From Lentisphaerae bacterium GWF2_38_69 (GTDB lineage Bacteria > Verrucomicrobiota > Lentisphaeria > Victivallales > GWF2-38-69): a stretch of DNA of 48,193 bases. The notes under the pieces are model-generated. The model was not told where the DNA came from and did no database searches. It was given only the letters and a program-made list of their open reading frames with translations. Location of the stretch: assembly GCA_001803205.1 (NCBI GenBank), contig MHBE01000066.1, positions 1-48,193 on the forward strand, read 5' to 3'. The position numbers and the translations under genes are program-made. This document shows, piece after piece, positions 15,723 through 17,766 of this stretch (positions are counted from its first letter, which is position 1; each line of letters begins with the position of its first letter).

Positions 15723-16940
15723 ATGCAGGACAGAATCTGGAAAATATCAGAAGTAAATTCAGTAATAAAAGAAGTTCTTGAAGGGGCGTTGTCCTCTTTT
15801 TGGATTGAAGCTGAAATTGGAACAATGACAGTTCACTCTTCAGGGCATGTGTATCTTGTCCTGAAGGATGAATCTTCACAGATGAAGGCGGTTGTTTGGA
15901 AAGGAGCTCGCTTAATACAGAATCTTAAGCTTGCAACAGGTTCTAAAATTGAAGCTTTCGGAGCAATAACTGTTTATGAGCCGCGCGGTGAATATCAGTT
16001 CACAATTCGTGATATAAGGCCTCTGGGGCTTGGTGATCTTCAGAGAAAATTCGAAGAAATAAAAAAGAGACTTCTGGAAGAAGGATTATTTGATTCTTCA
16101 AGAAAAAAGAAAATTCCGCTTTTGCCAAAACGAATTGGAGTTATTACTTCCCCGACAGGCGCTGCAATTCAGGATTTCCTGAATATCATTAACAGGCGAT
16201 TCCCCAATATTCATATTCAGATATATCCAGCTTCTGTCCAGGGCGCGGGAGCTGAGAAAGATCTGATAAAAGGAATTCAGTTTTTTAACCGTTTGAGTCC
16301 GCCTCCGGATGTACTTGTTCTTACAAGAGGCGGCGGTTCTATGGAAGACTTGTGGCCATTTAATAATGAGGCTCTTGCAAGAGAGATTTTCGCAAGCCTT
16401 ATTCCTACAATCAGCGCAGTTGGTCATGAAATAGACTTCACAATTTGTGATTTCGTAGCTGATCTCAGAGTTCCTACCCCATCATCAGCAGCAGAACTTG
16501 TTGTAGCAAAACAGGATGAACTTACTGAAAAGATTAACAACTTGATGGCAAAACTTAACTCTTCAATAAATATTTTTATTGAAAAGACGAAAAGGCATTT
16601 TGAACGACTTTCTGGCAGTTATGTTTTTAAGGATCCTCTGAGAATGATATTTGAGAGAGTGCAGACAGTTGATGAATTCAAGACAAGAATTTCTCATGCA
16701 GTCGAGCTTAGAATAGAAAAAGAATCTTCCGGTCTTGAAAGATTGAAAGCTAAGCTGCAAACTCTTAATCCTTTAAATGTATTAAACAGAGGGTATGCCA
16801 TACTTCAGGACGAAAATTCAGGAAAGATTATAGATTCGCCTGATACTCCGCCTGGCACAGCAGTTAAAGCGATGCTTGCAGGAGGTTATCTAAATATGAA
16901 AGTCCTATCAGGGAAGTATTGTAAACTTGATGAAAAATAA
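15723..16940 (+). CDS. xseA: exodeoxyribonuclease VII large subunit
   Basis: XseA is the catalytic subunit of exonuclease VII, which degrades single-stranded DNA from both ends. The N-terminal OB fold (about 1-95; WIEAEIGTMTVHSSGHVYLVLKD) is followed by the catalytic core with VITSPTGAAIQDFLNI, RGGGSMEDLWPFNNE and GHEIDFTICDFVADLRVPTPSSAAE. A coiled-coil region follows, then LNRGYAIL near the end. The length of 405 residues is normal. Its GGAG lies only one base before the ATG, so initiation may depend on termination of glgB 12 bases upstream. The small subunit gene xseB, which often follows, is not here; the next gene overlaps by 11 bases. Confidence 0.94.
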   Translation: MQDRIWKISEVNSVIKEVLEGALSSFWIEAEIGTMTVHSSGHVYLVLKDESSQMKAVVWKGARLIQNLKLATGSKIEAFGAITVYEPRGEYQFTIRDIRPLGLGDLQRKFEEIKKRLLEEGLFDSSRKKKIPLLPKRIGVITSPTGAAIQDFLNIINRRFPNIHIQIYPASVQGAGAEKDLIKGIQFFNRLSPPPDVLVLTRGGGSMEDLWPFNNEALAREIFASLIPTISAVGHEIDFTICDFVADLRVPTPSSAAELVVAKQDELTEKINNLMAKLNSSINIFIEKTKRHFERLSGSYVFKDPLRMIFERVQTVDEFKTRISHAVELRIEKESSGLERLKAKLQTLNPLNVLNRGYAILQDENSGKIIDSPDTPPGTAVKAMLAGGYLNMKVLSGKYCKLDEK

Positions 16941-17766
16941 ATTTAAAATAGCATATCTCGGACCTGAAGGAACCTATTCATATCTTGTAGCAAAAAGAAG
17001 ATTTGCAGTATATGAGTTAATTAATTATACTGCGATTTTAGATATCTTTTATTTTATAGCTGAATCTCCTCTTCACAAAGGTGTTATCCCAATAGAAAAC
17101 TCTTCAGGTGGACCCATTGCCGAATCTTTGGATATACTCATTAACAACAATTTCGATGTTAACATAGAAGAATCGATAAGATTAAATGTAAAGCTTGCTC
17201 TTCTGGGAAAGAGAGGGAGTCAAATAAAGAATATCTATTCCCACTCCATTCCGATGTATCACTGCGATTCATGGATAAGAAAGAATTTTAAACATGCTTC
17301 AAAAACTGCTGTCTCAAGCACCTCAAAAGCGGCAGAAATAGCTTCAAAGGAAGAAGGAGCCGCCGCCATAGCATCAATTGCTTCTGCTGATATATATAAA
17401 CTGGATATCCTTGAATACCCAATTGAACAGAACATCCCGAATACAACTCAATTTTTTGTTATATCAAAAACAGAGAAAGTTCCTCCAAGAGGAAATAAAA
17501 TTAAAACGAGCATATCTTCATTTTTTCCAAGCAATCCCGGAAGCCTTTATGATTTTCTTGAACCATTCAAAAAAAACGCAGTAAATTTAAGCAGGATTAT
17601 TTCAAGACCGATTCACGGAAGCCCTAACGAGTATGCTTTTTTTGTCGACCTCGACGGAAGCGTCTTTGATAATCCTATCATTCAGTCGATAGAGACAATA
17701 AAAGAAAGAGGCTGTAATCTTAAGCTTATTTGCTCTTATAAGGATGACGAAGTTTATAATTTGTAG
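16930..17766 (+). CDS. pheA: prephenate dehydratase with altered TRF motif
   Basis: Converts prephenate to phenylpyruvate in phenylalanine synthesis. The PDT domain (about 1-180) shows AYLGPEGTYS, GVIPIENSSGG and AESLDILI. The C-terminal ACT domain (about 190-275), which binds phenylalanine, has PGSLYDFLEPF, LSRIISRP (usually IESRP) and YAFFVDLDG. The key oddity is the catalytic TRF motif, which reads Thr173-Gln174-Phe175: the essential Thr is kept but the invariant Arg is Gln. The ATG at 16930 is preferred to the in-frame TTG at 16927. The length of 278 residues is usual for a monofunctional enzyme, with no chorismate mutase domain. It overlaps xseA by 11 bases. Altered activity is possible. 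Confidence 0.88.
   Translation: MKNKFKIAYLGPEGTYSYLVAKRRFAVYELINYTAILDIFYFIAESPLHKGVIPIENSSGGPIAESLDILINNNFDVNIEESIRLNVKLALLGKRGSQIKNIYSHSIPMYHCDSWIRKNFKHASKTAVSSTSKAAEIASKEEGAAAIASIASADIYKLDILEYPIEQNIPNTTQFFVISKTEKVPPRGNKIKTSISSFFPSNPGSLYDFLEPFKKNAVNLSRIISRPIHGSPNEYAFFVDLDGSVFDNPIIQSIETIKERGCNLKLICSYKDDEVYNL

Follow-up and report, generated by a model that had tools for sequence, protein, structure and literature searches.

The window analysed here, a 48,193-nt stretch of DNA from Lentisphaerae bacterium GWF2_38_69, carries a gene for a prephenate dehydratase (PDT) whose catalytic motif departs from the expected TRF, raising the question of what kind of enzyme it encodes. The gene (16930..17766, plus strand, ATG start at 16930) specifies a 278-aa protein, P0001, and its ATG is overlapped by the stop codon of an upstream gene (15723..16940, plus strand), which from our own reading of its sequence we take to be xseA (exonuclease VII large subunit); the same overlap is present in the related genome G001 (L071). 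P0001 matched the Pfam PDT model over 180 of 181 profile positions (1.4e-44), and no chorismate mutase domain was matched within it. The ACT-like region at its C-terminus could be aligned with solved PDTs and scored below threshold against the Pfam ACT model (15.5 bits, cut-off 27); GSLY stands there where GALV is expected and ISRP where ESRP is expected, with the GALV-type glycine retained. P0001 is the sole PDT in the window. Structure prediction of the PDT from two sequences gave a mean pLDDT of 39 and was not usable.

As stated in a preliminary description of this DNA, whose residue numbering proved right, the codons at 17446..17454 (act-caa-ttt, plus strand) read T173-Q174-F175 in place of TRF. 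The att codon at 17599..17601 likewise places Ile224 at the Glu position of ESRP in the ACT region, residues 223-227 being I-I-S-R-P. The rest of the enzyme had been called intact, and this held for the PDT domain as a whole and for the sites corresponding to Asn160, Ser208, Thr278 and Phe280 of E. coli PheA (numbering mapped via E. coli PheA DNA), the first two being Asn57 (17098..17100) and Ser104 (17239..17241). It did not hold for the Gln215 site, which is occupied by His111 (17260..17262). Zhang, in 2000, is said to have identified Asn160, Ser208, Gln215 and Thr278 as catalytic residues of the E. coli PDT, with Q215A reportedly lowering activity about 500-fold, whereas the R184L variant of the C. 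glutamicum enzyme, described by Hsu in 2004, reportedly retains about half its activity. Given His111 and Gln174 at the two sites, P0001 was classed as a PDT variant and not as an ordinary member. Its score against the NCBIfam PDT equivalog PRK11898 was 197.4 bits, under the 219-bit threshold.

Checked in relatives, TQF was not peculiar to this gene. A match to P0001 was present in 56 of 60 related genomes, and TQF together with IISRP occurred in all three genomes of the window's own family (f1), including G001 (63% identical) and G002 (51%). All four genomes of family f7 read TEF with IISRP, and G030 reads TRF with IISRP. When 76 different PDT domains from the class were read, the Arg was absent only from the seven f1/f7 proteins and from G115 (TQF, HSRP). 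A profile (A1) built from those seven proteins matched 369 of 387 genomes searched across the phylum; 43 scored above 240 bits, the next score being 227. These 43 genomes, chosen by profile score and not by the residue at the Gln215 site, define what we call the H-type subfamily; 42 of their proteins were read (G232 was left out), and G030 stands as a 44th genome that is not H-type. For comparison, the 42 H-type domains were aligned with 80 other PDTs, drawn from the phylum plus eight records of a plasmid collection, 122 domains in all; the 80 are a sample of a larger match list, among which low-scoring H-type proteins may have been missed.

In this alignment the two sets were separated by the Gln215 site. 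The H-type domains have His (39) or Tyr (3) there and 78 of the other 80 have Gln, so that the split is complete once L051 (Arg) and L033 (Glu) are set aside. Asn160, Ser208, Thr278 and Phe280 are each kept in 42 of 42. The Arg next to the catalytic Thr, which had been called invariant, is nearly so in ordinary PDTs (Arg in 79 of 80, Lys in one), but not in the H-type subfamily, where it is kept in two of 42 and otherwise replaced by Q (17), E (6), V (6), H (4), T (3), N (2), M (1) or A (1). The Glu of ESRP, present in 75 of the 80 other PDTs, is I (17), V (10), L (9) or H (1) in 37 of the 42 H-type domains and E in five, and Gln211, found in 71 of the 80, is found in none of the 42. A strict pairing of TRF Arg with ESRP Glu was tried and rejected, as family f41 combines TQF with ESRP, and TRF occurs without ESRP in G030 and in two genomes resembling Xiphinematobacter. 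Outside the phylum, the comparison covered eight of 64 plasmid records, whose PDTs all have Gln215, and none of five solved relatives with alignments shown has His at this site. In a quick tree search whose root was not tested, a single branch (SH-aLRT 97) divided the 42 H-type domains from the rest; with this one origin, the changes at Gln215 and Arg279 are together a single event. Members are nevertheless spread across 20 family codes of the phylum, and their genes gave dN/dS values of 0.05-0.13 (NG86, five pairs), indicative of purifying selection; several of the dN/dS estimates here and below have dS above 1. TQF is a variation common to the subfamily, and the replacement of Gln215 by His, missed in the preliminary description, is the more telling change and the sharper mark of the altered enzyme proposed there.

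Also observed was L051, the stand-alone PDT of G030 (81% complete), which combines TRF and IISRP with Arg at the Gln215 site; chorismate mutase was not found in that genome.

Could the H-type enzyme nonetheless supply the dehydratase step? P0001 is the single PDT match in its own genome (3.12 Mb, 95% complete), where a second pheA had been thought worth seeking. Likewise, a second full-length PDT is absent from 37 of the 43 H-type genomes, among which nine have a partial second match, 27 have none, and one, G377, has an unrelated-looking match (positions 36-178, 43.6 bits) in a protein of 386 aa that lacks a TRF-like motif; by our reading it lies beside a methyltransferase-like fragment and further genes of non-aromatic function, and it was set aside. 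The remaining six have a second full-length PDT, but no such second copy has all four catalytic residues. The second copy carries S208C, Q215E and F280Y in G002 and N160H, S208G and T278A in four f41 genomes, while that of G385 (L245) is a DAHP synthase-PDT fusion with N160H and Q215H and with TRF retained. An H-type gene is also the only full PDT in G297, a genome matching Methylacidiphilum kamchatkense Kam1, and in G220, a genome matching Xiphinematobacter, the naming of both being strong but indirect. M. kamchatkense Kam1 is a diazotroph that grows without an added nitrogen source. Xiphinematobacter is a nutritional symbiont described in PMC4607532 and PMC7857533 as having kept aromatic amino acid genes, those of the Phe pathway included.

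The surroundings of the pathway are less regular in the window's family. No match to TyrA (PF02153) was obtained in the window's genome or in G001, G008, G015, G026 and G411, and a weak match in G002 was read as a proline-pathway reductase; phenylalanine hydroxylase (PF00351) was absent from ten genomes tested, which included five of the six without TyrA. With neither TyrA nor the hydroxylase, the family's aromatic pathway looks odd and incomplete on paper, and prototrophy cannot be assumed for the window's organism.

We also compared the enzyme with known systems. In domain content, approximate length and the presence of N160, S208, T278 and F280, P0001 resembles stand-alone bacterial PDTs with an ACT domain (4lub, 2qmx, 2qmw); unlike these, H-type enzymes have His or Tyr at Gln215, have lost the TRF Arg and have mostly lost the ESRP Glu. 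The PDT and ACT regions of E. coli PheA, a chorismate mutase-PDT fusion (P-protein), can be aligned to P0001; in the order to which the window belongs the P-protein is the common form, whereas P0001 lacks the mutase domain. Taken together, the gene most likely encodes the cell's working PDT, a stand-alone enzyme of the phylum's distinct H-type subfamily, with loosened Phe control. Chorismate mutase would supply prephenate, which the H-type enzyme would decarboxylate and dehydrate to phenylpyruvate using the conserved Thr as acid. The His would take over the job of Gln215, the TRF Arg would be dispensable, and loss of the ESRP Glu would weaken or change feedback by Phe. Altered Phe control, also suggested in the preliminary description, is plausible. 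The ESRP Glu is changed, as in P0001, in the fungal EqPdt and reportedly in Buchnera PheA, and according to PMC11980547 the former, with NSRP and an intact TRF, is active and uninhibited by Phe, Tyr and Trp. Since this NSRP enzyme escapes Phe inhibition, ISRP by analogy probably means weak Phe control.

Because Gln215 is reportedly catalytic in E. coli, its replacement could also mean another substrate or other chemistry. With regard to the former, H-type enzymes might be mainly arogenate dehydratases, an aminotransferase first making arogenate; loss of the Arg and gain of the His, with Glu or Gln beside the Thr, would fit an amino group, the remodelling does reach the catalytic surroundings (Q211, Q215, R279), and the remnant mutase genes of G008 and G026 (see below) adjoin an aminotransferase-like gene. 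We nevertheless regard a mainly arogenate-using enzyme as unlikely, although arogenate may be used too. Plant arogenate dehydratases belong to the same family and catalyse the same overall reaction, yet, according to PMC10845154, mostly keep both TRF and ESRP, and the residue linked to their use of prephenate lies where the ACT domain begins. Moreover, replacement of the TRF Arg by residues as different as V, T, M, A, Q, E, H and N is unlike a new binding contact.

Different chemistry on prephenate or a related acid, such as non-aromatizing decarboxylation, with Phe obtained otherwise, appears improbable, even though Gln215, Gln211 and Arg279 are all replaced. Non-aromatizing prephenate decarboxylases of the BacA type are not known to have the catalytic Thr or the ACT domain. 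P0001 has both Thr173 and an ACT-like region, and in the genomes matching a diazotroph and a symbiont that keeps its Phe genes there is no full PDT besides the H-type enzyme. That a PDT-like protein may have further activities is illustrated by GqqA (PMC8192741). Finally, a decaying paralogue or a sequencing error, both raised in the preliminary description, can be practically dismissed: Arg-to-Gln takes one base change, but the altered motif is common to relatives 51-63% identical (TQF throughout the window's family, TEF in another) and the subfamily to 20 families, purifying selection was found where measured, and there is no normal enzyme beside this copy, its own genome having no other PDT and the usual enzyme of related genomes being amputated, altered or gone.

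We return to the H-type enzyme as the working PDT, for which the fate of the usual fusion is instructive: in H-type genomes the P-protein occurs only as remnants or altered copies. The nine partial PDT matches, covering about the first 78 of 181 profile positions (some beginning at 12-16), are parts of chorismate mutase genes. Ten genomes (G220, G234, G441, G404, G279, G352, G001, G008, G021 and G026) have such a remnant fusion, encoding in order the mutase and the first PDT half, joined directly to the strand around or after TRF, and then an ACT-like tail. All ten lack the second PDT subdomain, the one that holds Ser208 and Gln215, and the gap has the same two ends in each. Pfam ACT was matched in four of seven remnant proteins scanned, three of them above cut-off. 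In the window's genome and in G417 the remnant mutase protein is shorter still; the only chorismate mutase found in the window's organism (L060, 168-175 aa; 30709-30936 of contig C9, minus strand, apart from P0001) has a short PDT leftover behind the mutase domain. By contrast, among 80 control genomes without a high-scoring H-type match, hand-picked from non-H genomes, the frame holding the mutase reaches 335 aa or more in 77, frame length being a crude measure (exceptions: G241, G263 and G294). In G008 and G026 (L063 and L055 between them), an aminotransferase-like gene directly follows the remnant mutase gene.

A tree of the mutase part required five changes between intact and non-intact states, of which well supported branches force at least three; many of its branches are long and weak, the window's genome sits on a long branch whose placement we do not trust, and the G002 protein (duplicate L033) was counted as intact. 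For the G220/G234 mutase gene, conservation was similar in the remnant part (dN/dS 0.20) and the mutase part (0.15), with higher values by YN00 (0.38 for the remnant gene and 0.19 for the H-type gene of this pair); in Methylacidiphilum pairs the remnant part is looser, at 0.31 versus 0.02-0.07 in the mutase part. Such a history could be accounted for if, with the H-type enzyme present, the PDT half of the fusion became unneeded and was lost or changed, while the mutase stayed, often with a remnant and ACT. A structural precedent for loss of a PDT half is GqqA, whose middle subdomain was lost by proteolysis while the remainder kept its fold, as reported in PMC8192741.

The fusions of the four f41 genomes (L214, L217, L218 and L219 in G323, G240, G321 and G329), which read ENRP where ESRP is expected, took another course. 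We ruled out that they are dead or decaying, as dN/dS was 0.03-0.05 (two pairs), and because they are so strongly conserved despite altered catalytic residues they may have a useful function, conceivably even as the dehydratase. Extended to the whole phylum, a tentative and somewhat doubtful scenario would be that Phe synthesis came to rely for its dehydratase step on an enzyme in which His or Tyr replaces Gln. The displaced fusions would have lost the same half at a common hinge in different lineages and so become chorismate mutases under ACT regulation that still serve the pathway, as in the Xiphinematobacter-matching genome, while the f41 fusion would have become a strongly conserved protein in which three of the four catalytic residues are gone.

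The TRF Arg and Gln215 serve to recognise PDTs, and a phylum-wide branch lacks them. The curated PRK11898 model misses the H-type members tested, P0001 and seven others scoring 189-215 bits against the cut-off of 219 and an ordinary relative 265. If the H-type enzyme is the sole PDT in Phe-making organisms, it would show which residues the chemistry truly needs and correct pathway annotation. Repeated half-loss of the fusion's catalytic domain, in several lineages without loss of the regulatory domain, amounts to a natural experiment on how bifunctional enzymes split. No description of the subfamily or of the mutase remnants was found by title or abstract in the open-access literature searched. 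As a further observation on the mutases, family f7 has a second chorismate mutase that is fused to a DAHP synthase-like domain (L053, L058 and L062).
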